A stretch of 64,000 nucleotides of DNA from contig JAVTVX010000004.1 in the NCBI GenBank assembly GCA_033439265.1, forward strand, positions 24,623,201 to 24,687,200, read 5' to 3'. Source of the DNA: Dillenia suffruticosa. Its lineage: Eukaryota; Streptophyta; Magnoliopsida; Dilleniales; Dilleniaceae. Made by a program: the position numbers and the translations under genes. This document shows, in pieces, positions 2,960-47,900 of this stretch (the first letter of the stretch is position 1; each line of letters starts with the position of its first letter). The notes below the pieces were generated by a model. That model ran no database searches, had not been told where the DNA came from, and was given only the letters and a program-made list of their open reading frames with translations.

Positions 2960-4369
2960 ATAAATCTCTTACTTGGATTAAATTCTGTCCTACATCCATA
3001 GAATTAATACGTTAGAAATGGTGACAAAGAAGTCACCAATAATTCATTGAACTTAAGAACTTTAACCCTTTCATTCCATTAAGGATCAGAGACTTTCTTG
3101 ACGTCACCATAGAATTCAAGCAAAACTTGATGGGCACCCCTGTTTTACCGCCTATAGAAATAGCTGATTGTGAAAGGAAAATTAAGATAGATGGTTCAGG
3201 TTTGTTTCGCCTAGGGTTCTATGCTAAATTTTTAAGAGCTCTTGGAGGTTGATTAAGAGACTTGGGAAAGACTCGCTTTAGTTTGACAACCAGGCAATCA
3301 TATATATTTGGCGATGAGCTACCATTACCATTACAAGATGAATTCGATCAGCATGCACAATGACTCACAAAACATACAAATCAAACATTATTAAATATGG
3401 TATCTTAAGTGGTCACGGAAGGTCCTAAGTGAGTAGAAGTAAACTGATTCATGTAGTCTCCAAACCAATCCATGGCAGACCCTGAAGTAAACAAACTCAC
3501 CTAGCATCGTAATGGGTTCATCCTATGGAAAATAGCTAAGGCTCAATAGAGATTCAACAAAGGTGAGGACCCCAATGACACTGAGCGAGGGTTGCTACAT
3601 TTTGATGACTTCCACTTACTTTTTACCAGCCAACACTAACATGCATCGAGGAAGCATGACATCCTTGCATGTAGCTAGTCCTGTTGCATAAATTGACAGA
3701 ATATCCCCAAAGCAGATTTCAAGGTTGAGTCTTGAACCATCCGTGAGAAAGAGATGTATCCTTTACTAGTGAAAAATGTCAAATGCAAGCTTAGCTGCTT
3801 GAACTTGGGCACTAAGTTTTCTTGATCAACTTTAAATAAGCCAAGTTTGAACATCTCAAAATTCAGCTCATCTTAGCTTTCTCATTGCAATCCTATTTGA
3901 GAGTCATTTAAGGAGGCTATGTCATAAACTCAATAGTAGTTTATGCCTAACAACCTAGCAGATATCAAGATAGGAAGAGTGTAGACACAAATTAATCACA
4001 ACTACCCATGAGTCAGGAAGAGCATAAAATTGAAATATTCTGCTGTCTTAAGGTGATCTTACGTTCTTGATTATCTAACCATTACAAAATTTCTGCAATA
4101 TAAAATCCCAAAGTTCACATACATTGTAAATGTTCTCTTCCAAAAAAGAATGTAATAGATAACAGGAAATAGGATGAATTATTGGCAAAAGACCCCTTGA
4201 ATGCTGCACCCAAAGAATTGAGAAGGCTGCAGTGCAAGTAAAATCATTTCCACAGACTCCTCCATAAAATGTCAGCATCTTTATCTGAATGACTAGTACA
4301 GAGCTCAATGCCATCTGCAGTAGAGTAGACCTCGACAGAAAATGGAGAAAACAATCTTGTGCATGAAGT
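2960..4369. other. 3' flank of the H+-ATPase gene, nothing recognised
   Basis: Sequence downstream of the proton-pump stop codon. The part next to 4369 must contain the 3' UTR, but no unambiguous poly(A) signal can be chosen. An open minus-strand frame at 4075-4314 has no recognisable domain and lies in the likely 3' UTR. Confidence 0.4.
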
Positions 4370-10300: not shown

Positions 10301-13300
10301 AACTTTAGACTTTGATTAATACAATTTTGAGGATTTCCTCTCAACCCTAAACTGGGTCTTATCATTTGGGGGAATTCCCAGATTTAGGGTTTGGGTTGAT
10401 CAAACTCAACCCATCCCTTTTGTTTTGTGTTGGTCTCAGGAATTTTGGATTCTAGAATGATAAGGGTTGTAGAAAACAAAATATCTCCAGGGTTCTAGAA
10501 TGATTGGATAATGTACTAGCAGTTAGAAGGAGGGTATGGTCATAGACCTATTGATGCATGGAAAGGGATAAGATGGTTGTTAAAGAAAAGAGTTTTTGAC
10601 CAACAAGCATATCTGGCCATCACATACAAAATTTCAAAGTAGTGAGGATAGCCTGATAACCCCAAAAGTAGAGTTGGTTGAACTCATAGTAATTACTACT
10701 TGGGTTACAGAAGTTGAGTCTGGATCTGGGTTGAAGGTGAAAAACGAAAAGAAATCAGCAGAACCAAACTTTTGTGACTATTCCAAGGTTGTTTGTGAGA
10801 TTGGGGAGGAGGAATTGACATGAATGTTGGTCCCGCTATAACATCTGAAGTTGAATAGTTGAGTCCTCCTTTGGCAAGTGAAAAACTTATTCTCAAGGAG
10901 ATAAATGAAGGAGCTCTCAGTGTGGAAGATGCTTGGGTTGTTCTAGAAAAGGCGATTGAAGATCAGGGATATATCGATATTATGGTTGTTGAAACAATGG
11001 AAGGGGCAAAAGGGGGTTTGAAACTTGGAAGTAATGAAGGGTTAGAGGATTTTGTTTCAGAAGAAAGTTTAGTTTTCGATTCTGCATCTAACAAGATTCA
11101 TGATGCCTGTTGAAAATATGGAGTGCAATCAGCCCAAGTGAATGCCCAAGAGAGTGCCCAAAGGAAGCCAGGAACATAACCTAGAAAATGTTCTGGGTGC
11201 TCTGGGTTCTGGCCACCATAATGTTGCTGCTGTTCAACCTTGTCTAAAGTCCAAGAAGAGTCTTCCATAAGGTCCAAAATGGAAGTTCAAAAAAGCCTAG
11301 AAAAGGCCCATAACACAGCCCAATCTACCAAGGGCATTTTGAGCAGAATTTCTAAGAGCTAGTTTTTTTCTTACTGCCGGCTAGTTTTTTTATCTCTACT
11401 GGCTAGTTAGTTGGTGTTCCCTATAAATAGGACTCTTCTATCCTCATTTTGCAAGCAAGCAAGAAATTGTATTCTCTTGCTTTGAATGTTCTATGTTGTG
11501 GAAAAGTTCTTATGTTCATTTTTTTTAATTAATACAAATTCATTCGTTTGTTCTTTCAATCATTCTTTTGTTTTGATATCAAGTTTTCAACATGGTATCA
11601 GAGCAAGATAATATCCCAAACTCTTCAACCGAACCAATTTCAAGATTGCTGGAGTCTTTCTTGCAAAAACCAGAACCTGTTCATGCTCAACCCTTTTCTT
11701 CCATCACTCTAAATTCTTCCAACTACTTTCAATGGTCAGCTCATGTAAAAAGGTCCTTGAATTCAAGGAACCTTCTAGATCATGTCACAAAAACATCGAT
11801 GGAAGAATTAAGCCCAGCATATGAGGAGTGGAAGAGGAAAGTTGACCAGGTCTTCATACTTCTCTCTAGCTCTATGGATCAAGTCCAAAGAAATATGGTC
11901 ACTTGTGCTCCAAATTCAAAAGCACTATGGGATCAAATGTATGGCCTTTATGGTCAACAAAAAAGTTTGGGAGGGATATTTGAAATCAAGAAGCAAATTT
12001 CAAATATCTGGAAAGAGGGAAAGGTTCTCACTCAATTGTTTGGAGAGTATGAGGACCTTTGCAATGACTTGGAGACATTAAGGCCAACTACTACTAACCT
12101 TAATGTCTTGCAATGAAGAAATGACGAAGACAAGTCCTTTGGTCTTCTCATTTCCCTGGGAGAAGCTTTCACTCATGTTTGTCAGGAGATTCTCAGGATG
12201 AAGGACTTCCCTTCCTATCAGGAAGTGAGGTACATGATTCAGAGGGTCGAGGCAAGCATGAGGCTGGAAGAATCTTCCCGAAACACCGAAGTTGAAGGCC
12301 ATGCTTTCAAAGCAAAGGTAGAAGATCGAGTTGCCAATAAAGCTCAACAGGTCAAGATTGGAGCCCAAAAAGAGAAGTCCTCACAGCCCAGAATATGCTC
12401 ATATTGCAAGAAACCAGGGCACATCAAAGAGAAGTGCTAGAATCTTTACCATACTTGGTGCCGGATTACATCAAAAAGAAGAGGTAGCCCCAAACCTCCT
12501 TAGCACAAACCTTCTCGGCCTTGGCTCAAAATGCGATGCTTGAAGCTGCTATTGATGAGCTTACCAAGATGCTCCAACAAGTCAAATCTGCTATGGATGG
12601 CCAAGGTACTTGTCTAAACTTTTCTTTAAATTACAGGGAATAGGTGGTAGATTTGGGATGTGACTTTCATATGGTTAGGAATAAAGAAAAAATTAAAAGA
12701 TTAGAACCATTACCTAGCCATAAATTAGTTAAAGTTGATAATGGAAATGATTTGCATGTTAAAAACTTAGGAGAAGTAGAATTTTTTGGGAAAAATTCTA
12801 AGACTTCATATGTTCCAGAATTCACTTCTGATTTAATGTTCATTAGCAAAATAATTAGGGACCTCAATAGCAAAGTTGTCTTTGATCCTGACAAGGTTGT
12901 TTTTTAGGATTGCAAGACAAATCGAGTGATTGGTAGAGGATAGAGGAAGAACAATCTATATTTTTTGAATCAAGATAATCATGCACTTCAGACATGCCAA
13001 GATAAGAAGATAGCTACTTACTATGGCATCCTAGATTAGGACACCCTAATAAGTAGGTTTTAAAATGTCTATTTATAACAAAAAATTATAAAAATAGATC
13101 AAGTAAAGCTTGCATTTTTGGGAAAGAAACATGAATGTACTACCTATATTTTGAAACCATATCTAAGAATGCTTTTGACCTAGTATATTCAGATATTTGG
13201 ATGTCTCCTGTTACATCGATAAGAGGTTACAAATATTTTATCTCTTTCATCGATCATAAAACTAGAGACACTCAAAACTAGATACACTTGGATCTACATG

Positions 13301-25796: not shown

Positions 25797-25924
25797 AGCT
25801 GAAGAAAGTCTCAAAGCCCCCTAGTAATTCAGCAAGAAAGTAGATTAGAAGAGTGCAAGTGGAGATTGCATCAGGCAGTGGCAGCGGCAGTGGCAGTAGT
25901 GGAGGAAAAGGCGCAGAGAGAGAT

Positions 25925-26050
25925 GGATCTATAAAGGAGGAACAACTAGAAGGGAAATGATGATTTGGTAGCTGACCGTTGGTTGGCGGTTCACGACGAA
26001 CTAATCCGAAATCGGCCATATGAATATCTTAATTGTTGACGTGGTGGGAT
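25925..26050 (-). promoter_or_regulatory. Candidate proximal promoter of the H+-ATPase gene
   Basis: A TATA-like tract lies at 25929-25935, reading TTTATAG on the minus strand. About 45 bp further upstream, 25976-25992 reads AACCGCCAACCAACGGT on the minus strand and contains AACCAAC- and CNGTTR-type MYB sites. A W-box core TTGAC lies at 26036-26040, overlapping a GACGTGG motif. Relatives in the PH5/TT13 branch are controlled by MYB-bHLH-WD40 complexes with a WRKY partner, so this arrangement is suggestive. Motifs this short occur by chance, and the TATA orientation is not ideal. Confidence 0.35.
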
Positions 26051-26327
26051 GGGAGAGCAAACGGAGAAGAAAAAGTCGTTGCCCAACAATCCTTCCTAAC
26101 CTGACTTTCAAACCTAACGTTCCTCTCCCCAGTCCCCAGCCTCAACCCTCGAAGCCTCAATCAATTATAATACGCAACTCCGATCTTTCCAACGAGACTC
26201 GGATAATTAAAATAATAAATAAAAATTGCATTGCTATTTTGGATGCTTTGTACGGAAATGACACTAATTTTATAAAAATTTTTTAAAATAATACAGTTTA
26301 AAAAATATTTATAAAACTAACCCACCT

Positions 26328-26561
26328 ATGTCGTGATTTCAAGTCACGACATGCACTGTTCATACATGTCGTGACTTCAAGTCACGACATATGTTTAAAA
26401 CGTGGTATGTCGTGACTTGAAGTCACGACATAGGTCATGTCGTGACTTGAAGTCACGACATAGGTCATGTCGAGACTTGAAGTCACGACATAGGTCATGT
26501 CGAGACTTGAAGTCACGACATGATTATTCTAATGCCATGTCGTGTGTTGAACTCACGACAT
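26328..26561. repeat. Cluster of seven 25-bp palindromes (copy A)
   Basis: Copies start at 26328, 26366, 26407, 26437, 26467, 26497 and 26537. Each is arm ATGTCGTGACTT or a close variant, one central base, and the reverse-complement arm. The four from 26407 to 26521 are spaced exactly 30 bp apart with a 5-bp AGGTC linker, giving a tandem array. The copy at 26537 is of the AACTC arm type. Confidence 0.95.
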
Positions 26562-26787
26562 GTTTCTGCCTACTGCCCAAAATCAATTTTCATATTATAT
26601 GCTGTCTAAATTTACAATCAATCAATTATAATACGCAACTCCGATCTTTCCAACAAGACTCGGATAATTAAAATAATAAATAGAAATTACACTGCTATTT
26701 TGGGAGCTTTGTATGGAAATGACACTAATTTTATAAAAAAAATTTAAACAACACCGTTTAAAAAATATTTATAAAACTAACCCACTT

Positions 26788-26924
26788 ATATCGTGATTTC
26801 AAGTCACGACATGCACTGTTCATTCATATCGTGACTTGAAGTCACGACATATGTTCAAAACGTGGTATGTCATGACTTGAAATTATGACATAGGCCATTA
26901 TGTCGTGAGTTAAACTCACGACAT
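26788..26924. repeat. Cluster of four 25-bp palindromes (copy B)
   Basis: Copies start at 26788, 26826, 26867 and 26900. The first three are decayed versions with ATATCG or ATGTCATG starts. The last is a perfect palindrome with arms ATGTCGTGAGTT and AACTCACGACAT around a central A. Confidence 0.93.
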
Positions 26925-26985
26925 ACTTCTGCCTACCGTCCAAAATCAATTTTCATATTATATGCTGTCCAAATTTACAACACAA

Positions 26986-27279
26986 AACAAACACTACAAT
27001 ACAAGACAAATACCACAAACTCCGATAGTGACCAAATTAACCATTCTGCTATTCAAATTTATAACGTAACACAAATACCACAAACTCCAATAGTGGCCAA
27101 ATCAACCATTTATCGACCTCATAACCATATTTCATATACAATACTCTCCAAATATCATAACTGATCAGCAACAAATCCCAAAAACTAAAAAGTACTAAAT
27201 AAAGTACAATGAAAAAAATAAAAAAATAAAATTAATTTTATTAATTTTAATAGAAGTTACAAATTACAAAAAAAAAAAA
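26986..27279. other. A+T-rich 3' flank of the PMD relic
   Basis: Contains a short tandem duplication around CAAATACCACAAACTCC (27007 and 27071) and the presumed 3' UTR of the PMD gene. No coding frame. Confidence 0.45.
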
Positions 27280-29234
27280 TCAATGTCGTCGTCTTCTTCT
27301 AGTATACTGTCTAAGACCTAAAATTACTCTACTACCTATAAAATCATTACGAGATACTAATCTCATATAATCTATCTGTATGATCTGGGAGGGGCCTACA
27401 TCCTGCTGATGGGGATCAGAGAAAACAGACGGGGACACATGATACACCAGTGGTGCATCATCTCTCACACCCTGTGTCAGTCCCTCATCCATAAAGCTAT
27501 CGGGACGAACTCCCCTATGAGGAGCCCCCGGAGTGAAAACCTGAGAGAAGTCATCAAACACAGGCGTGTAGAAATCTGAAAACTCATCGAACGTAGTAGA
27601 AAGTCCTGCGAAATTCTCGGATTGCTGTGACGGTGGCGGTGACGCATGTTCGAACGAGCGTCGAGGTCTCGTACGCTGTCCTCTCCCTCGTCGTCGTCCA
27701 CGTGCTCGGCTTGCATCACCACCGTCTGCACAATCTATCTCGGGGCGATCATTGAAAAGACGTGTCATATCATCTGCCAGAACCGAGATGGCCGACTCAG
27801 CAAGGCCATGAACGTCAGCACCAGGATTGTCTCGTATCTCGTGCAAAGTGTCCCACTACAAACAATAATGTGAAAAATAATTAAAACAATAAATTAAAAT
27901 TTTTGATTGAGAATGAAAAGAAGGTAGTAGAGAAAAACTTACCACTTAAGTCAAAGAAGCTCCCCGACGACCGACAAATCTGCAGGAGATGGAGCGAAAC
28001 TAGACTGAATAGTCAGGATCGAGCGCAGGTCCGAAGGAGGTATTTAGCGGAACTAGATGGTCGTGTCGGTGATTCCAAAGATCAATGTACACTGCATGTG
28101 CTGCCGACCAATCAACCTCTAGAGTACCCCGCGTGCTCGTATCGTGGAGTCTGTCTTCGGTGTCACACTCACCCGGAACGTATTGCAAGCCTCCAAACTG
28201 TCGTAACACCCTATCTGGGAAGTGCCACTCCACGATACTAAAACAAATTAAAGGGACCCGTGCGTACCAAAGATCCTTCCCCCTGTGACAGTAGTCGGGG
28301 AGGGATGACAATACATCATCCGAATACGGGATCCAAATGACCTAATCAACCGTCTGCCTATCGAGTGCCTCCCTATAAACGGAAACTACGTGTGTAGGGA
28401 ATATAGTGACATCAAACTGAGTGTGCCACCGCAAACCGAGTGGTCCATCCCCATTTACGTACAAACCTCGTCGAATAGGAGCCATATACGAAAATCGCTC
28501 CCACCCCCAAATCAGTAACAAAACTAGCCCCCCCAAATCTCACGTGCATGTGCATGCGTAGTTATACAAAACTGTCTGTATAGATATACCAAACACGCAG
28601 ATCCCCGACTAAATCTACCTGACAACTTTAAATCCTCTAAAAATAACCTAAACTGTAAATATACAAAAGTTCCTGTTTTATCAGAAAACAGGATACCCCC
28701 TATCAAAAGTAAAATATAAGCCCGTGTCTACCGTAAAATTGTTATATCATCAACACCGGCGGCCAAATTACTAAAAACCTCAGACAACCACGGCATGCTC
28801 AAAGTGTAACCTCTAACGGCAGACTGTGGTGGCCTAACACCTAAAAGTCTCTTGTATACATCATCTCATGCCACTGCCGTCATCCTAGAAACGAGGGGAT
28901 GGCCATCCACAGGTAACCCTAACAAAACCTCAATATCCTGAAGGGTAATAGTGATCTCACCATGGGGAAGGTGAAAATTATGCGTCTCAGGCTCCATCGC
29001 TCGACCAGAGCAGTGATAAAATGCCAATCAAACTGAATGAAGCGAAGTCGAGCAATGCCGCTCCAAAAGAGGAAAGGCTCTCTCGTCGATGTGACGGTGG
29101 TCCCAATGGCATAACACGGCCTCGCGTCGACGGCAAGTGAGCGTAACCGTCATGCTGACTCCCTCCCAAAGGTGAGAAGAACGGTGTCATCGCTGTAACC
29201 AGAGCACACTCGGATCAGAACGACTTGGATCCAT
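27280..29234 (-). pseudogene. Plant mobile domain (PMD) protein relic, MAIN-like
   Basis: Related to MAIN/MAIL1 and the so-called protein phosphatase 7 long-form homologues. Exon 1 (27943-29234) starts MDPSRSDPSVLWLQ and carries the conserved [86 protein letters not shown] and RVPLICFSIVEWHFPDRVLR blocks. Exon 2 (27280-27855) after a GT-AG intron gives a low-complexity C-terminus ending in a run of Arg. There are at least three in-frame stops and two frameshifts within the domain, so it is a pseudogene. It lies downstream of the transposase in the same orientation. Confidence 0.88.
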
Positions 29235-29491
29235 CTGCAAAATAGAGAAAGAAAAAATAACATATTAGATTACAAATACGTAATGTTAAAAATAAATTAC
29301 ATTTCAAATGCTCAATTAATTTAGATTACAAGTAATCATTTAAATAAATAGAAATACACATTTATAAACATGAATGTCATAACACATTACAACTGAAAAT
29401 ACCAAAAGTCAAATTTACGAAAAACAAATACATGATATCCGTTATAATAAGAAATACATAATTTTTAACTAAAACACAAAAACTATCTATA

Positions 29492-32400
29492 TCAACACGA
29501 TATGGTTGGGCAATTTTTTCGGTTGTGACCCTGTCTCCCACAAATACCACATTTCATTTGTGTCGTGCTTCTTCTCCGATTATGACCCTTGACACTACAA
29601 CTGCCGCACGATACCTGCGAAGATGATTCTCGGATATCCATCTCGTTATGATATCGAGATGACTTTGGTCTCCCTTTCTCACGTCTTAGTGATACGTCCG
29701 GAATGATAGTTGGGTACGATCCAATTGGCCATCCAGATCTATCTCCTACCGGTGAAAAATATAACTCGTACACTTTAAGTTGATGTTGCCACGTGTACCG
29801 TTTTCCGACAATCATATGAACATCCATCATGGTCCGTGATAGTGCAGCGATTGCATGCGAGCAAGGTATTCTATACATTTGTCATTTCCCACATGTGCAA
29901 TGTTCATTGTTGACGTCGACGATCTATTTATTTCTTCCCTTGTGGTCATATCGTGTTTATCTATAACCTGTTTCTATCTCGAAAATCTCATTCTCCCTAC
30001 TAAAAGAGACAATTGTATGAAGATCAGCGGTGTTCATCCACCCTCCTAACATGGCATTTGCATACTTCGTATACCGCTCTCCTCTTGCCATCCCCACTTT
30101 CGCCTCAGCGATTCTACCTTCAAAATAATTCATCGTATTATAAAATGTCTTGGTGTGTCGTTAAACAACCAAATATAAAATATCTATTTCCAACAATACG
30201 AATATAGCGCGAGTAGAGTCGTATCCACAGAGAACAGCATGTCTATTTTTTTTAATAAAGATGAAAATAAAAATATAGGGGGGATTTTGATGAAATAATC
30301 TAAAATAATTAAACAAACAAATCAATGAAAATTAACTAAAATAAAATGACTAGATAATACCAATTAAAGAAAAGGATGTCAATTAAGGTAAAATTTCGCG
30401 AAATGAGTTATTTCCATCTTGATATGTTTGATTGATTATCGATACAAAAATTATTTGATATTATGCGAATAAATTGGTTATAGCCGCTAAGTACCACGAA
30501 ACGACCAATCTCTCCTTACTTTTTCGGTAATCAAGATACCATCGTTAATTACTTTTCTAATCGAAAGACAACCCAAGAGACCCTCATTAGATTTAATATT
30601 CCGACAGCATTACGATATAGAGAGACCCAATTCTAATCAGTAAATTTCAATCTGAATTTATTTAAATTAGATTATCTAATCTCTTGATATAAATCCTACC
30701 GCTTCGAGACCATAAAATTATGTCAATTACCACTCCATTAAAAACACACAAAGCTTACTGTTTTTAAATGGTTGTAGATTATTCCAGAGTTATTAAATAT
30801 AGGCATCTATTTAATAATCTCAAAACAATCATAAACACTAAGTATAGAAATTAAATAAATACCCATAAATATCAAGCAAATAAGATCATTTAGATCTCAC
30901 AATTATCATTTATCAAGATTTCAATAATTTTTTAACTAAAAAAATCAATTAAAAACAAAGCATGAAAAAGAAAACTCACTAAAATACTTTATTGATGTGG
31001 AAGAAAAATGAAATTATAAGAAGCATGTCCATTCCCCGTTGTAGCTTTGTTTCCCCTAATATGTGCCTCATTTTTTATTCCAAAAGCAAGGAAGAAAACT
31101 CCTTGAAACTGCCGGCTGCAGCCCTTTTGGGGCTACACACCCAAAAGTGCCTCCAAAAAGTATGAAACACTCATATATATATAGTAGTAGTAAACCCTCA
31201 AATTTCTTCCTTATTCAAATTGATTTTTAAGAAAGAATAAATTTCCCTAAAATATAATATTCTAGAAATTTAAAATAAAAGAAAAATTTCTAAAAATCTG
31301 AGATTTACATTTTTAAAAATTCATTTTCCTAAATATTAGGAATTGAATAAAAATTTTCAATATCTCCAATTCCATCCGAACTTCCTCTTGAATATGCAAT
31401 TGGGAAAGGAAATTTTACTGCAATAAACCTTCAAAACCTCTCGCTTGTTTCTTGAAATCCACGTGCCAACATGCTAATGAAAGAGTATTGCTGTCCAATT
31501 TTTCATACTTTACAAAATTACTCCAATTTAACTTCTTTTTCTTCATTTTCCATAATAAATCTCCTCCTAAATCAAATGTCACAAAATATAAATATTAGTA
31601 TAATATTTATTCAAAAATAATATAAAATCAATCGCAAATATTACACTTATTTAAACCCTATCATGTCTTCATTACCAAAGCAGCAACGGGGAGATTTCTT
31701 GCACCTTTTAGCACGATATTATAACTTTCACTGATATTGGTCGTCATATTGCCATAACGAAAGCTACCATCGTGAGAGAGAGTCCACTGTTCAGGGCTAA
31801 TGTTCACGAAGTAATCGGGGGCATCAATTTTTATCTTCTTCATTCTCGTCATATATAGATCAAATTTCTTGCGTTGTGATTGTAATGCAGCAATTACGGG
31901 GACTCTCTTACAAGCCTGACTTTTATGATGTGTGTGAAAGTTACTAGCGACATGTCTCATGCAAAAACGCCAAACGACATGCGGAGGCGACCATCCAAAC
32001 TCTGGACGAACAACAGTAGCTTTTATCCCTTCATGTCGATCTGAAATCAAGCATATTGGTCCCTCCCTATCTAACACAACATAGTCTCGCACACACTTTA
32101 AAAATCATGACCACGACAACCCAGCATTGACACATGTATGCGGTCCCTCCACAACAGTTATCATAAAGGCATCAAGTAGTCTTATTTTACGTGCATACAA
32201 CCTCCACCCACAACTTTCGTCCCTTTAAGTATATACCGCTGTTCAAAGTGTAGGGGTTGATCTCTTAACACGAAATTGATAGTGATTCTCCACATGATGC
32301 ATTTTTACAAAATGTATAAGTTCATCTTTCGACTCAAAACTCATACATTTCTTTACTTCATTGTTAAAACTCCCACTATCGATTGTCAATCGACAATCTT

Positions 32401-33090
32401 CCTCAAAAGTGACATAACCATCTCCTCCCGGTGCAATTCGCATGAAAGGAATTGACTCATCAACTCCGCTATAGAGATATCTCCTACCACCATGAATGGG
32501 TGCAGGCTGTGAAGATGACCCCAATATCGTCTGGTTTCCATAATTACGACCACTAGTACGACCAGCTTCTCTACCATCTTCTTCTTCATCATCATCCTCT
32601 TCTTCGGCATCTTGCTCCGCCTCCTCTTCGACCAATTCTTCTTCATCCACATCATTATCCATGTCTACTATTGCAACATCCACTCGAGATTCGATATGTG
32701 GATATTCTTCATCATAATCGCAATCTTGTTGTATAGGGACAAACGTCCGACCATTGTATATCTTTATATACAACTCATGACTTGTATCCACTCCCATAGC
32801 CACCGCAAACTCCATCAAGTTCAGAATGTCATCATCATCATTGATCGGTACCAATACGTACCTTACATTCCCTCTTGCATGTGTGACATAGGATAACGAA
32901 GAAATATCTCTATGTGTTGTCTTGTCAAATTGATTCCAAATCCCTTACAGACCATGGTTACCAACTCATTAAAAAATATATCTTTTTTCACCCGAATCAA
33001 CTTCGAAAGTTCACGGTCATAGCCCACTCTATTCTGACCCTTAACAATTTCACAATTTGTGTAACATAACAATTTCACCATATCCACCAT
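29492..33090 (-). pseudogene. MURA transposase relic of the Mutator-like element
   Basis: Would encode a DDE transposase. In minus-strand order: N-terminal domain (32863-33090), a frameshift, an acidic linker rich in Asp/Glu followed by a zinc-finger-like domain with KRSTPTL..DESCGWRLYARK..HTC (32100-32854), the second half of the MULE domain with CLISDRHEGIKATV and RFCMRHVASNF (31661-32092), an inserted 1.5-kb element, then TFYNTMNYFEGRIAEAKVGM, a SWIM zinc finger (CTC...IPCSHAIAA) and a C-terminal CCHC knuckle CGICGRQGHNRKNC (29492-30145). The segment between the zinc-finger-like region and LISDRH is missing, including the first catalytic Asp. Stops and frameshifts are also present. It is not functional. 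Confidence 0.9.
30151..31663. mobile_element. 1.5-kb solo-LTR-like insertion in the MURA relic
   Basis: The insertion starts TG and ends CA, and is flanked by a perfect 5-bp duplication TGTCT (30146-30150 and 31664-31668). Removing it rejoins the MURA frame from ALVMKT to FYNTMNYFEG. The A+T-rich sequence has no coding frame, which fits a solo LTR or a small non-autonomous LTR element. Orientation cannot be set because TG...CA is symmetric. Confidence 0.8.
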
Positions 33091-33812
33091 TTCTATTTAA
33101 AATCAAAAAATATTTTATTAATATACATTTCAAAAAAACAATTTCAGAAAATACAAGTATCTTTCCTACGAATCGTATCATAAACAAAATTTAACTATAA
33201 ATAATAAATTTAACTATAAGTAATAAATTTAATATAATTTTCATTTAAAACCCTATAATTAAATTTACAACAAAACAACAAACAATAAACAAAATTTATC
33301 AAAAAATATTCTAATTTTATTTAACTACAATTAATAAATAAAACTAATTTTACTTTTAATACATTTATCAAAAAAACCCTAAAACCTAATTTTATCCAAA
33401 ATTAAAAAAACCTTAATCCCTAATTTGTCATTCATTTCCAACAAAAACCTAAACCCTAAAACATTAATATCTAATTACATCTTTCCAAAATATAGTTAAA
33501 TCAACAAATAACATATCAATTGAATAATGTACATTAAAATTTAATCAATTTAAACATATAAAATTTTAAATTTCAAGGAGTACAAATAACAATTTACCTT
33601 CGTCAAATTTCGCGTGTGAAATTTTCAAAAGCAGTGGATCGCGGTCAATTCATTTCCCTCAGGTTGCAGATGTCCTTGGCTGTTGCAGTTCGTGCGCGCA
33701 GAGGTGGAGAAGGTTTTCGTCTGTGGCGGAGCAGGGAGAAGCAGAATGGGGAAGAAAGAAAGAAAAAAGAGAAAGGAGAAAACAAGAAGGGATCGGGGGT
33801 TTAAGTTCGAGC
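33091..33812. other. Presumed MURA promoter and leader region
   Basis: A+T-rich to about 33600, then a more G+C-rich purine tract (33690-33790) rich in GGAGAAGG-type repeats. It lies between the transposase relic and the right-end palindrome, where the promoter of the Mutator-like gene is expected. No motif stands out. Confidence 0.3.
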
Positions 33813-33837
33813 ATGTCGTGAGTTAAACTCACGACAT
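33813..33837. repeat. Single 25-bp palindrome at the right end of the Mutator-like element
   Basis: Perfect dyad with arms ATGTCGTGAGTT and AACTCACGACAT. It is identical to the copy at 26900-26924, so the same arm type lies nearest the coding region at both ends of the element. Confidence 0.93.
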
Positions 33838-33901
33838 GATCAACTCAAGACAGGGAGGATTCGATTAAAAAAATTTTAAATTTGTTAAAAATTTCATTTC
33901 T

Positions 33902-34757
33902 TATCGCATAATAGAATTACTTTCATATTAATAAAACGTATCCATCCAAAAATAGGATAACCGAGAGGTCTGACAGTTGAGAGTGAGGATGATCGAGAGA
34001 TTAAGAAATAGCATGCTTCTTGAGTAAGAGAAGGTTGAAAGGCATAAACTATAATGCTCGACCGAGAAAGCACTCAGTTGAGAGGTTGAGATTATGTATG
34101 ATCTAATAGGTTCGGATAGTCCCGATCTTAGGTAACGATCCTTTGGACCATATACTGTCAAGGAGAAAAACCATAGGACCATAGTCAGTTGCAAAACTCT
34201 ATTAATTCAAGTAAAGCGTTTTTGGATTACAACAATAGTCAAAACAAAGACTAGATCTAGTAATAATTGCCAACTCACGTCAGAGAATGCAACTACCATC
34301 ACACAATAAACAGCCAAATTAGAGAACATTAGAAGATCTCACCAAAATTATAGGTTTTAGGGCAACACTACAAACAAACTTGAGAGTACAACAAACAATC
34401 ATTTAACGTACAAAAATTGAATTTCTATGTACTTAATAAGCCCACAAAATTTCAGCCAAAACAGAAGAAATTCATTGTTCGATTGTTGCAAGAAGACAAC
34501 TCCCAAACTCCCTCTTTTTCTACCTCAACCTCTCGTCGATACTTCCACTCTCTCAATATTTTTTTGCACACCTGGGAACGACATGCCCCCCACAAATTGA
34601 TATCTTATTGATAAACACCCTCCAAAGTGGCCACTCTACCATTACTATTGATTAGGCTCCAAATTTAGTAGGCAAGTCATTAATTTTGGCCCAATAATCA
34701 AACCTAAACAGGGCATTCATGGGAATTATCCTGTTTGTAGATACAAGGTCGAAGATT
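33902..34757. other. Intergenic, nothing recognised
   Basis: No family, inverted repeat or RNA gene was recognised. A minus-strand open stretch at 33928-34194 lacks any known motif. Confidence 0.3.

Positions 34758-34758
<1 letters not shown>

Positions 34759-34849
<91 letters not shown>
34759..34849. repeat. (GA)n microsatellite, about 91 bp
   Basis: Uninterrupted AG repeats, the longest simple repeat in the window. The reverse strand reads as a Ser-Leu repeat frame, which is not a gene. Confidence 0.98.
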
Positions 34850-34850
<1 letters not shown>

Positions 34851-35339
34851 GCAAGGGAGTTGAAAATTTGGGAAAGAGCAAAGAAGTGAGAGAGAGAGTT
34901 GGGTGAGTCTGTCTTCAGTGGTAGAAGAGGAGGCAGAGACTCATATTCCAATCCAAATTCTTCAAATGATTATTATACTGAGACTGCAATTTCAAGCCCT
35001 GGCCATGAAGTGGAAAATTCTAGAAAGAATTTGTACTAATTTTTACCCGCCAGAAGAACATCATAAATATTGGCCCCCTAAATTGTTTTGTTATCGTTCG
35101 GTTTTTACCTCCCAAGTATGTCACCGCTCTTTCTTTGACTTCGCCAAGGGTGAAGACTCTATTCCATTTTCTATCTTCCTCTCTCATTTCTTTCTCAAGT
35201 CAAGAACACCCCTGACTTTTTTAATGACAAATAATGAATGCGTGTAATTTTGATATTCTGGTGAGATATTTTTGTTGAATCGTATAAACGGTGAAACTCG
35301 TTTTTAAGAGTATTTAATCTTGATGTGATTTCTTTGTGC

Positions 35340-36010
35340 TATACATTTTTATAATATTAAAAATGAAATATAATATAAGAATATAAATATTAAAACTCCA
35401 ATGCTCCAATTAAAATATTATAATTCATTAGATTTATATGCAATATCTATTATTACTAATATAAAAATAAATATTTTCAAAATATACGATATTTTTTAAC
35501 ATTTTTTTAAATTCAATACAATATAATAAAAATTATTTGAATTTAAAAAAGGCTATAGATATATGCTAATATGATTGAAAATGTATTTTTATAAACATGA
35601 AGAGCAACTTTTTTAGATCGGATCATAGATATTATGGGGCACATGTGAACGTATATCGAAAAACAATTTTTTTCAAAATAGACCTCTGGAGACACGTGTG
35701 GTGTGCATATTGAAAAGAAACTTTTTCTATAATGCCTAATGATCTTTCGAGGCGTGTGTAGGTGAGTGAATGGTTGTTTTGGGAATCCCTTTCTAAAAAT
35801 AATATAAAATTACGAATCCTAATACTTTAATATTTTAATTAAAATATTATAATAGGTTGAATTTATATAAAAAATTTATTGATATAATTATGAAAATAAA
35901 TATTATAAATATAAAAATAAATAAAATAAAATATTTTTAAAATCAAATTAATAATCGTTTTGATTTTGATATAAAATATATTTTTTTAAATATTATTAAA
36001 AGATTATTTA
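35340..36010. repeat. A+T-rich direct repeat with about 450-bp period
   Basis: 35350-35540 and 35800-36000 share the order TAATATAA..AATAT.AA..CT..AAT, AATTAAAATATTATAAT and AAAATAAATATT, separated by a less A+T-rich stretch with GGCACATGTGAACG and GACACGTGTGGTGTG strings. This is one and a half units of a diverged repeat with no coding frame. Confidence 0.5.
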
Positions 36011-36317
36011 TAAAACAAAAAATATGAACAAAAAGCTAAACTTTTTTCTTCCTCTTCATCCTCTCCTTACTTTCCCTTCTCATTTTCTGGATAACCAAAT
36101 CATTAATTTTGTTATAAAATTATAACTTTGAATACATTTGAAAGTTTACAACTTAATAGGAAGAATTTTTTTTTTTTTTTTTTGTGGGTTAGTATTGAAT
36201 CTAAATACGAGTCAAAAGTTTAAAATTACTGACGCTAATTATCTTTAACGATTTTAATTCACATTAAATTCCGCATGTAATTTTGTCAAACCAAATTTGC
36301 TTGCCGGAAAATTTGAG

Positions 36318-36678
36318 TTTTGTTCCAAATTAACCGTAAAAAAAAAAAAAAATTTAAAACATCACCCCTAAAAAAATATTTCCAAAACTAATACATATAT
36401 GTCATGATTTGAAGTCACGACATTACTGTTCATTGAACAGTATCATGTCACGACTTCAAGTCACGACATGACATTATTCATCACGGTTTCATGTCGTGAC
36501 TTCAAGTCACGACATGATACTATACATGTCGTGACTTGAAGTCACGACATGATACTGTTCAATGAACAGTAATGTCGTGATTTTAAATCATGATATGAGT
36601 GTGTTAGATTTGGAAATATTTTTTGAGGGGTGTTGTTTTAAATTTTTTTTTTATTTTTAAGGTTAATTGGGAACAAAT
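36318..36678. mobile_element. Foldback element built from five palindromes
   Basis: About 360 bp that is itself an inverted repeat: the left arm begins TTTTGTTCCAAATTAACC and the right arm ends GGTTAATTGGGAACAAA. Inside, 25-bp palindromes start at 36399, 36445, 36491, 36526 and 36572 with spacings 46, 46, 35 and 46. The 46-bp spacers around 36424-36444 and 36551-36571 contain a second dyad, ACTGTTCA and TGAACAGT. The outer sequence matches the left end of the Mutator-like element, so it is probably its non-autonomous derivative. Confidence 0.85.
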
Positions 36679-36771
36679 TTCACACGGGCTAGATGACTAT
36701 CAACCGAAGAAAAGGGATTGACATCTCTTTCCCGACACAATTTCTCCGCGGCCCCAGCTTTGCCGCGTCTT

Positions 36772-36874
36772 ATTGTATCGAGCAAAACCAAACCCATTCT
36801 TTGGTGCTTCCTTTGCTGCTCTTCTATTGTATCGAGCAAAACCCCTTCTTTGGTGCTTCCTTTGCTGCTCTTCT
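36772..36874. repeat. Tandem duplication of about 50 bp upstream of the RTFL gene
   Basis: 36772-36825 and 36826-36874 both read ATTGTATCGAGCAAAACC ... CTTTGGTGCTTCCTTTGCTG. It lies between the foldback element and the RTFL promoter. Confidence 0.88.
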
Positions 36875-37083
36875 ACTCCTGTCCGGTAGAACTCACGTAA
36901 TTCGGACTCCTAAAAAAATTAAAAAAAGAGGAAAAGCTATGCTCACGTTCAACCCCTCTCTATCGAAATCCGAGCTGATCTTGCTGCATATTTCCATACA
37001 TATCCCACCAATTTCGAAACTGGCCATGTTCATTGTCCCCTTCTTAGAAAGCTGAGCTTAGTCAATCTTGTTTGGATTTGAGA

Positions 37084-37094
37084 ATATATATATA
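37084..37094 (+). promoter_or_regulatory. TATA-like tract of the RTFL gene
   Basis: ATATATATATA lies about 120 bp before the RTFL start codon, leaving a leader of roughly 90 bp if transcription starts about 30 bp downstream. No upstream ATG lies in that leader before 37213. Confidence 0.45.
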
Positions 37095-37212
37095 CGGTGC
37101 ACCATCCACACCCACGGACTCGTGAGTGTCCACCACACAGAGGCTTTTGCTCTGGTGTGACTGAGTACCATCAGATTATCAAGTATCTCTTGCCAATATA
37201 CTATCATTGGCA

Positions 37213-44900: not shown

Positions 44901-47900
44901 TAAGCCACTTTCCAAACTCTTTTAAGAATGGTGAAAGGTCACTCATACAGTCACATTAGCCCCTCATAGATCTCTCGGATTTGCCCACATTGGTATAGCT
45001 TTACCAACACTTGGTCCCCCTCATTGAACTTGCGGAATGTTCTCTTATGATTGACCCACTTCTTCATTTGTTGTGAGACTTTTTGCAAGTAAAGCTTGAC
45101 TATGTCCGCTCGCTCTTGCAAATCCTTGGCGAATCGATAAGCAAGAGGGCTCGATCCCTTGTAGCCGACAACAATGCCTTTGGGGGTTGTTGGTTGAAAC
45201 CCTAAAACTACCTCGCATGGACTCTTGCCAATCCTCACATTTTTCTGCAAATTGTACGAGAATTGGGTCACGTCCAGCAACTTAACCCAATTTATTTGGT
45301 TCACTGCCACATAGTGCCGAAGATGTACTTTAAGCACATTGTTAACTCATTCCATTTTCCATTTGTTTGTGAGTGCATTGTTGTTAACATGTTAAGCTCT
45401 GTCCCATGCAAACAGAAGAGTTCCGTCCAGAAGCGACCCATGAAACGTGAGTCTCAATCATTTACTATCAAAATTGATAGCCCTCAATATTTGACTACGT
45501 GCTTCACAAAAACCTTGCCAGTCACTTCTACGGTGCACTCCTTAAGGACAGGAATGAAATCAGCATAGTTGGACAAACGATCCATTATCACCGGCATGCC
45601 CGTGCATCCTTCTGATTTGGCCAGCCTCACGATGAAGTCCATAGAGACACTGTCCCATATTCATTCGGGGATTTCCAACAGCTGCAACAATCCAGTGGGC
45701 AGTTGGTTCTCCACCTTGTCCAGCTAGCACACAAGACAAGTATGTACATAGGCCTCCACATCATCCCTTAACCTTGGTCAACAGAATCGTTCTTGCACCA
45801 GGGATAGTGTGATGTACTCCCGGATGGCCAGCATAATGACTGTCGTGGCATTCCTTAAGGATGTCCTGCCTCAACTTGTCCCACGCAGGCACATACATTT
45901 GTTGGCCTTTTGTGTAGAGGATTCCGTTCTCGAGCCAAAACCTTGTGATCATGCCTTGCTTGACCAACCGTTTGAATACATGAGCTTGTCAATCATGTGA
46001 CAGCCCTTCCTTGACACGTTCGATGAGCTGTCCCTCTGGTGCACTTGCCCTTAGGGCAATAGCACTCTTATGGCTGAGAACATTGGCCACAAAGTTGGTC
46101 TTACTTGGACTATACTTGAGAGTTTCTTTTGGGATTGGTGGTAACTTACGCCCTATTGTCTGTCTTAATTTTGAATGGCATGGCGGCTTTGAGATAATAT
46201 TCCCAAACTCTCAAGCAATGAACAACTGCAAGTATCACCTTTTCATGTGTTGGCCAGCATCGCTTAGCTTGCGGCTCTCGTATGCATTTGGGTGGATTTC
46301 TTGCATAAGAACCCCCAAATTTGGATGCATCGGTGTGCACTTGAATAGTTTAGTGAAATCTGGAAGGGCGTCTTGTGACTGCATCCTTTTAAGGCCTTGA
46401 ACGCGACTTGGCACTTGGAGGTCCAACTCCATGTTTGCCCACTCTTCAATAGGTGGGTTAGAGGTGTAGCTATGGCCGAGTGCCCCTCTATGAATCGATG
46501 ATAGTAGTTCACAAACCCAAGGAATGATCATAACTCTGTTGCCTTGATTGGTGCCTCCCACTCCACGATGGCCTTGATCTTTTGGGGATCCATACAAGTC
46601 GTGCTGACTCCCACAACGTGCCCCAAAAATGAGACTTGTGTTAACCCAAATGAGCACTTCTCTTTCTTCACGTACAAGTGGTTGTCTTGAAGTGCTTGGA
46701 AAACAAGTCGAAGGTGTTCCATGTGCTCCCCCATGCTACTGTTGTATATTACAATGTCATCGCGGTACACCACGACGAATTTGTGCATGAACTCTGCTAA
46801 TACCCATTACTTAAGGGTGCAGAAAGTGGCTGGTGCATTAGTTAAGCCAAAAGGCACAACTAGAAATTCATAAGACCCGTACCTCGTAATTATTGCTGTC
46901 TTGGGCTCGTCTCCTTCCGCTATCTGCACTTGATAGTATTCCTTGCATAAGTCTAGCTTAGAGAACACCTTAGCCCCATGTAAACGGTTGAATAGATCGA
47001 CAATGAGTAGGATAGGATACTTGTTCTTCACCGTTAGCTTTTTGAGGGCCCGATGGTCATTGCACATATGCAAGGTACCATCCTTTTGGAAGAGAATGGG
47101 TGCTCCATTTGGGTTCTTGGATGGTTGTATGAATTTGGCCTCCAAGAGCTCCTTGAGTTGTCTCCCGAGAAGTTCATTATGAGACATGTGATAAGGCGGT
47201 TGAGAGATTGGCTTAGCACCATTCACTAGCTCAATAGCGCGGTCCACCTCCCATCTTGGTGGAAGTTCCTTCGGAAGGTCCTCGGGCATAATGTCTTTGA
47301 ACTCCTCTAAGACCTCTGCTACATCAGGTGGGATTGATGCCTTTATAGTTGACTTGGGTGTTAGGATCCTTCTTATGAATGATTGCTGCAAATGTTGGCT
47401 TGCGCCTTGAATTCTTTTATTGAGTTGATGCAGGTTCAAATCCTTTCCGCGACATAGTTTCTCAACTTGCATAATGAACATTGTGTCCTTACTCGGCACC
47501 ACGATGGGTTCTAAGTAGTATATGAAATCCATGCTGAAGACGACAACATAATCATCTAATGGGGTAATAGAGAAGGTGGTTGTATCTATCCATTAACCCA
47601 TCTAAACGGGCACATTCATGGCTTTCCCCTCGAGTGAAGTCCACTCGCCATTTATGCCCCTGAACTGCCCCTTTGCAGGCATCCACGTTAGCCGCAGCGT
47701 GCATGCCATGTCCCGACTAATGTAGTTAACCTTGACATGTCTACTAAGGCCATCATGTTATGCCTGACCATGCAGACATCCACGTACCTACGGCCCCTCT
47801 GCTGGTTTTGTACCTTGGCTTGGACCATATGGAGGAGTCGCATACATGCTACCTTCTATTGTTCCTTGGTTTGGCACAACCCTTGTGCTAACACAACAAT

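Follow-up and report, generated by a model that had tools for sequence, protein, structure and literature searches.

Short palindromes in the terminal inverted repeats of a Mutator-like element family of Dillenia suffruticosa, and the symmetry of their cores

Short palindromes that recur within a few kilobases, and whose two arms seem to have changed together, raise the question of what keeps the arms alike. Such a set lies in a 64,000-nucleotide stretch of Dillenia suffruticosa (contig JAVTVX010000004.1, positions 24,623,201 to 24,687,200; hereafter the window), for which an original prediction, made from the letters alone, described 17 near-perfect 25-bp palindromes with compensated arm changes in and around a Mutator-like element and a separate foldback element. 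Here, the palindromes were followed through the window and the 596-Mb genome. They are repeated building blocks in the subterminal portion of the terminal inverted repeats (TIRs) of a family of Mutator-like elements (MULEs) that has transposase and plant mobile domain (PMD) genes. Judging from sequence comparison, they would probably be dyad-symmetric sites for a dimeric or paired element protein, most likely the transposase.

Palindromes in the terminal repeats of a Mutator-like family

All 17 palindromes were located as predicted, at starts 26328, 26366, 26407, 26437, 26467, 26497, 26537, 26788, 26826, 26867, 26900, 33813, 36399, 36445, 36491, 36526 and 36572; 11 lie in 26328-26924, one at 33813 and five in 36399-36596. 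Fifteen of them differ from ATGTCGTGACTT-N-AAGTCACGACAT at no more than three of the 24 arm bases, which no site in 100 shuffles did, and the other two (26867 and 36572) have four mismatches each. Five copies match the main version exactly and two the AG version (core TGAG). The predicted central base of G, C or A holds for 16 palindromes but not for 36572, which has T on the + strand. A chance origin was rejected on the empty shuffles and on a reversed control pattern with no match in 596 Mb. Beyond 26328-36596, the 64 kb contain only three lone 12-mer half-sites (9839, 44670 and 51882) at up to two mismatches. When the arms of all 17 copies are oriented, 18 substitutions fall in outer arms and seven in inner ones. 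The elements concerned and their parts are as follows.

26157..26616 (+): unit A, the left TIR duplicated in tandem along with some 88 bp of neighbouring sequence
26328..26352: palindrome adjoining the unit A leader, with C10>T in the outer arm
26366..26521: five palindromes of the TGAC version (starts 26366, 26407, 26437, 26467, 26497)
26537..26561: TGAG-type palindrome, the innermost of unit A, with a further change in a single arm
26704..33837 (-): Mutator-like element in decay, which keeps its left TIR and whose right TIR breaks off just beyond the innermost palindrome
26704..26924 (+): unit B, which is the element's left TIR, with terminus GAGCTTTGTATGG, AT-rich leader and palindromes 26788, 26826, 26867 and 26900
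26900..26924: TGAG-type palindrome, the innermost in the left TIR
28000..29027 (-): remains of the PMD gene, broken by stops into several pieces
29492..33096 (-): MuDR-type transposase remnant (pieces 29492-29881, 31661-32104, 32243-32944 and 32863-33096)
30152..31662: insert of some 1.5 kb nested within the transposase gene, ATGTCTT at both flanks (30145 and 31663)
33813..33837: innermost palindrome of the truncated right TIR, TGAG type
36315..36681: non-autonomous foldback element of the same family, 367 bp, with palindromes 36399, 36445, 36491, 36526 and 36572
36424..36442: 19-bp palindrome TACTGTTCATTGAACAGTA between two 25-bp palindromes
36553..36571: second 19-bp palindrome, TACTGTTCAATGAACAGTA

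The prediction of a Mutator-like element was right, and the element has relatives elsewhere in the genome. Long DNA matches of about 84-92% to L039, L050, L060, L061 and L062 run from 26701-26704 to 33832-33852, with long stretches at about 86-92% for L050, L060, L061 and L062, and the homology to larger elements stops at 33832, 33835, 33837, 33837 and 33852. The palindromes had been described as clustering at the element's left end and lying near its right end; the ends are right, but the clusters are parts of TIRs, and 33813 is the innermost site of a truncated one. No convincing TIR joining the two ends was found outside the palindromes, because the right TIR is truncated, and target duplications of the window's own elements were sought without a convincing case.

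The genes of the element lie on the minus strand. PF10536 (PMD) scores above cut-off at 28000-28341 (E 4.1e-18) and 28866-29027 (E 1.8e-13) and below it at 28342-28539 (E 3e-4) and 28524-28727 (E 4.1e-8). The transposase remnant itself gives only sub-threshold Pfam matches (MULE domain PF10551, 15.0 bits against a cut-off of 27.6; SWIM, 15.9 bits), and three of its pieces share 80-93% protein identity with relatives that score above cut-off for both MULE and SWIM. At a lesion near 32114-32118, about 490 bp found in the relatives are missing, and the insertion at 30152-31662 is absent from L050, L060, L061 and L062.

Seven larger elements (L039, L046, L047, L050, L060, L061 and L062) were compared, chosen for having palindromes at both ends. 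Local alignment of both ends gave TIRs of 117-262 bp in all seven, each laid out as GAGCTTTGTAYGG or a near variant, an AT-rich leader and then palindromes; the full relatives L060, L061 and L062 have TIRs of 219-262 bp with 4-6 palindromes per end. Target duplications of 9 or 10 bp, none with more than one mismatch, flank six of the seven; L046 has none. The MULE transposase domain PF10551 is above cut-off in L061 (E 2e-12), L050 (3.8e-14), L039 (3.7e-14) and L062 (8.8e-8), and the MuDR-type N-terminal DNA-binding domain PF03108 is matched in L062, L061 and L039 at E 4.7e-5 to 1.4e-3 (18.7-23.4 bits, under the cut-off of 25). In L062, a SWIM zinc finger (32.7 bits, cut-off 19.6) and a sub-threshold zinc knuckle match accompany the transposase domain, and the PMD (E 2.1e-48) follows downstream of the transposase domain and SWIM finger. 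Read without splicing, the PMD and transposase domains occupy separate stop-to-stop frames in both the window and L062.

The separate foldback element also proved real, with five palindromes and arms of 153 bp each, 86% complementary and 54 bp apart, which fold strongly as single-stranded DNA (z -26.6). It is a non-autonomous derivative of the MULE family. A genome search with it returned 592 candidates, of which 40 were scored; matches, counted over both strands, number 89, and full-length copies elsewhere reach 89% identity to it. Target duplications of 9 or 10 bp (at most one mismatch) flank 16 of the 23 copies tested, the window's included, where shifted flanks give an expectation of 0.0; the window copy itself has none, and L020 has one of 11/11. 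This test left out L010/L029, L028, L030, L016 and L035, and a later check found 10/10 at L010, 8/9 at a poor terminus of L030 and none at L028. In addition, perfect 19-bp palindromes (TACTGTTCAWTGAACAGTA) alternate with the 25-bp ones, and the half ACTGTTCAT follows the outermost palindrome in 4/4 window ends.

Core types and arm symmetry across the genome

The genome-wide search with mismatches that the prediction had proposed placed the 25-mer at 1340 sites within three mismatches (reversed control, 0), so the family is not simply a product of duplication at this locus. Within this one genome, sister elements share the shell ATGTCG....TTNAA....CGACAT and differ in a four-base core that is mostly alike in both arms; the cores are TGAC, TGAG, AGTY and CGTY, plus single examples of others. 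Two kinds of sister element illustrate this.

L033:2055-2159 and 3215-3319, L048:3515-3632, L055:2581-2643, L013:999-1068 and L015:996-1065: elements of the AGTT type
L051:604-1713: foldback element of the CGTC type, terminus GAGACATGTTCC

The AGTT type, ATGTCGAGTTTT-N-AAAACTCGACAT, forms similar arrays, and its ends look related by eye. The L051 foldback has a 10/10 target duplication, TTGAATAATT; its middle resembles long inverted GA/CT-rich repeats. A small tandem array of four palindromes with GGAC/CGAC cores, overlapping head to tail at 23-bp spacing, was also seen at G000:C2:177351-177444.

Among exact sites, symmetric cores are frequent: TGAC/TGAC occurs 277 times, TGAG/TGAG 64 times, CGTY/CGTY 15 times and AGTY/AGTY, with Y free in either arm, 196 times. 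Three kinds of hybrid were counted, and all are scarce: TGAC/TGAG occurs 18 times against 116 expected, AGTY/CGTY once against 29, and TGAY/AGTY never against 230 (expected from TGAC and AGTY sites); a narrower search for TGAC/AGTT likewise gave 0. Independent change of the two arms, which would have told against selection on the symmetry, is thus not what the core types show. Of 235 type-1 sites, 218 have G or C as the central base, in near-equal shares.

A shell-only pattern with all eight core bases free found 1097 places (control, 0), and symmetry was measured on the first 50, on contigs C1 and C2. In this sample, 159 of 200 core positions agree between the arms, against 102.7 after shuffling, and 0 of 20000 shuffles reach that value; with one place per cluster, agreement is 83 of 104 against 51.9, which again no shuffle reaches. 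The signal lies mainly at position 7 (41 against 17) and position 9 (49 against 24).

The window, taken alone, tells a more modest story. The compensated AG-version copies had been listed as 26900 and 33813; both are correct, but the list was incomplete, as a third AG-type copy lies at 26537 and carries one additional change in a single arm. Five pair positions in the window show the same change in each arm, and another 15 are changed on one side or otherwise; by shuffling, covariation gives p 0.0026 with all 17 copies, 0.044 with a single AG copy retained, and 0.22 (2 observed against 0.86, not significant) without AG copies. Across the orientable arrays, the AG type is innermost in 15 of 16 under an automatic rule (the rule left five arrays undecided, and a lone copy was skipped), and the sole exception was mis-oriented, its leader lying on the opposite side. 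Because the AG type sits innermost in its arrays, the AG copies of the window are best read as one inherited positional type, not as separate compensations, and independent compensation inside the window was rejected on this and on the lack of significant covariation without them. The proposal that the dyad is kept while the sequence changes therefore stands for the core types genome-wide and falls for the window's compensated copies as separate events. At the other end of the arrays, the leader-adjoining palindrome has outer-arm C10>T in 4/4 window ends, though not in all relatives; in unit A, the last four TGAC-version copies are spaced 30 bp and the last two share the outer-arm change T7>A.

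A probable dimeric reader and its alternatives

We favour a reading in which a dimeric or paired element protein, probably the transposase, would recognize each arm as an equivalent half-site. An array of sites would provide avidity at both element ends, the core would confer family specificity, and foldback copies would move by borrowing the end recognition of the family; after silencing, methylation-driven C>T decay would erode the arms one by one. We propose that symmetric types together with one-armed decay in silenced copies arise because a dimeric protein reads two equal half-sites. That the words of sister families have changed on both halves suggests that paired proteins may read them as family addresses. 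A wider picture, attractive but in our judgement still short of probable, is that several sister MULE-type families each have a dyad-symmetric address, consisting of a fixed shell and an equal-armed core, that might co-evolve with a dimeric element protein. In this picture the innermost site of a TIR keeps a type of its own, and the protein might thus read the array according to position. If true, this would be a natural specificity code, readable from sequence, for transposon end recognition or anti-silencing, and would bear on how MULE proteins keep specificity among many related families within one genome. Palindromes with variant cores and few hybrids also make a natural variant set for testing the reader protein and its specificity bases.

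The position of the palindromes is consistent with this reading: over 87 aligned terminus matches, which may include double matches, the first palindrome begins about 85 bp inside the terminus, and conservation is higher in palindrome arms than in the leader, with mean majority frequencies of 0.943 and 0.824 (p 7e-5). Several points weigh against it. Those 87 termini were found via palindrome or foldback similarity, which biases the comparison toward conserved palindromes. When unit A is aligned with 26617-26980, identical bases number 91/100 in palindromes and 240/263 in flanks, so both have decayed alike since the recent tandem duplication, as dead copies would. The core counts represent intact-shell copies of inherited types, not events, and independent two-armed events may be few. 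In the 50-place sample, covariation is absent at position 8 (39 against 40) and slight at position 10 (30 against 21.7), fully symmetric cores number just 15, and in five of ten AGTY places the arms differ at the last base, C against T. Finally, binding might fall to the PMD protein rather than to the transposase.

This last point belongs to the strongest alternative, in which the palindromes would be targets of an element-made accessory protein, PMD or other, that shields the element from silencing as VANC does. The family does carry a PMD, and the authors of PMC5418596 speculate that captured PMD serves anti-silencing. VANC reads short family-differing motifs in VANDAL elements (PMC5735166), and its targets, as far as described, are short motifs packed densely into non-coding DNA and changing in concert from one related element to another, like the palindromes here. 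However, the VANC21 motifs described are arrayed in one orientation, whereas ours are palindromes; no VANC-type protein was matched by Pfam among the open reading frame pieces of the window that were scanned, nor in ten pieces of relatives; and short foldback copies, which need mobilisation only, still keep the sites. We therefore regard an accessory protein as an unlikely reader and retain the transposase as the probable one.

Symmetry might also be kept by a DNA mechanism, either hairpin-templated (quasipalindrome) correction or foldback gene conversion, that needs no protein reader. The arms are complementary and the foldback folds strongly. A tally of 267 palindromes from 49 sources shows many two-armed transversions (62, against 66 one-armed), and in a separate test C10>T fell on both arms 10 times where 4.6 were expected. 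The loci of the tally were fetched for 25-mer or foldback resemblance; they do not sample events at random, and the inherited TGAG, AGTY and CGTC types account for much of the two-armed counts. Both the tally and the C10>T test omit L010, L016, L028, L029 and L035 (repeats of other loci) and L019 (no repeat); the tally omits also L059 (which repeats L041) and L003-L006 and L056 (overlaps). The same set counts against the mechanism: C>T and G>A changes mostly hit a single arm (197 cases, with 30 on both), and other transitions do so 49 times, with three on both (Fisher p 9e-13 for the tally). The gene conversion that the prediction had allowed for is thus not favoured between arms, because C>T and G>A decay stays one-armed where such repair should make decay symmetric. 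In addition, position 8 changes in the 50-place sample are never symmetric, and the two-armed transversions are mainly a few stable types with no spectrum. A DNA mechanism seems to us more doubtful still than an accessory protein.

That the palindromes are RNA hairpins, with foldback transcripts feeding small RNAs or microRNA-like precursors, is very improbable: predicted folds are strong (z -15.8 for RNA 26240-26625; -26.6 for the foldback as DNA), but folding is a property of any inverted repeat, a hairpin needs no fixed shell with a changing core, and 25800-37200 has no Rfam match at gathering thresholds, on which a known RNA family was rejected. A viral or prokaryote source was likewise rejected: the viral contigs searched contain neither an exact palindrome match nor a relative of the transposase piece, and the one identical palindrome carried by two soil metagenome-assembled genome contigs stands in unrelated DNA.

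Known systems and neighbouring features

Foldback MULEs with repeated subterminal motifs are already known (PMC5225508, PMC3169594, PMC4486113), and comparison with the accessible parts of the literature places the present family among them. Muta1 and other mosquito MULEs have 8-9 bp duplications and a long TIR with nine subterminal repeats, and many non-autonomous copies retain the TIR, the element being termed a type 2 foldback; its subterminal repeats, however, are 12-bp tandem units, and the imperfect palindrome described is a 10-bp terminal motif (PMC5225508). Tm1, a Mutator/Foldback element of root-knot nematodes, likewise has TIRs of repeated motifs and 9 bp duplications, but its motif is a tandem unit of about 14 bp and the text available describes no palindromic unit; the same source mentions Mcmar, a Tc1/mariner-like element with palindromes inside long TIRs, which belongs to another superfamily (PMC3169594). 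Among plant foldback MULE derivatives, MuTAnT and FARE are covered by PMC4486113 and PMC3310237, where FARE1 is given long palindromic repeats at both ends and MULEs with tandem TIRs show a TIR tandem duplication like that of unit A; no array of short dyad sites appears in the accessible text, and the distinction is one of description, not of sequence. Galileo, a foldback-like element of the P superfamily in Drosophila, also has long, internally repeated TIRs, with a proximal transposase site about 70 bp from the end and further sites in the repeats; it is of another superfamily, the paper nowhere uses the term palindrome, and the text seen describes no symmetric family-specific cores (PMC3688188).

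The VANDAL/VANC system of Arabidopsis (PMC5735166, PMC10398659) is alike in that dense short non-coding motifs of MULEs differ between families and change together. As described there, it differs in its one-orientation motifs, a VANC gene in place of a PMD, and degenerate TIRs, which have no counterpart in our seven larger elements, picked for two-ended palindromes. MULE transposase and PMD also occur together in elements of grasses and Amborella, where the available account describes fusion proteins (PMC5418596), whereas here the PMD lies downstream in a separate reading frame.

TIRs built of 25-bp palindromes with two-armed core differences between sister families were not found in the open-access literature, most subscription papers and the repeat databases lying outside the scope of that search. 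Six palindrome sequences of 17 to 25 bases were not found there either; 12- and 13-mers do occur, in five papers, and the one instance examined is part of a PCR (polymerase chain reaction) primer. What appears new here is a set of TIR palindromes with cores that vary from one sister family to the next on both halves; foldback MULEs with subterminal repeats as such are not.

Between the MULE and the foldback element lie a long GA microsatellite (34761-34849, limits approximate) and two direct repeats (35366-35484 and 35795-35913) that are 73% identical. The window also holds pieces of other retrotransposons, namely a Copia-type gag at 11577-12113 (PF14223, E 3.4e-6) and a reverse transcriptase piece at 46807-47592 (PF00078, E 3.3e-10).

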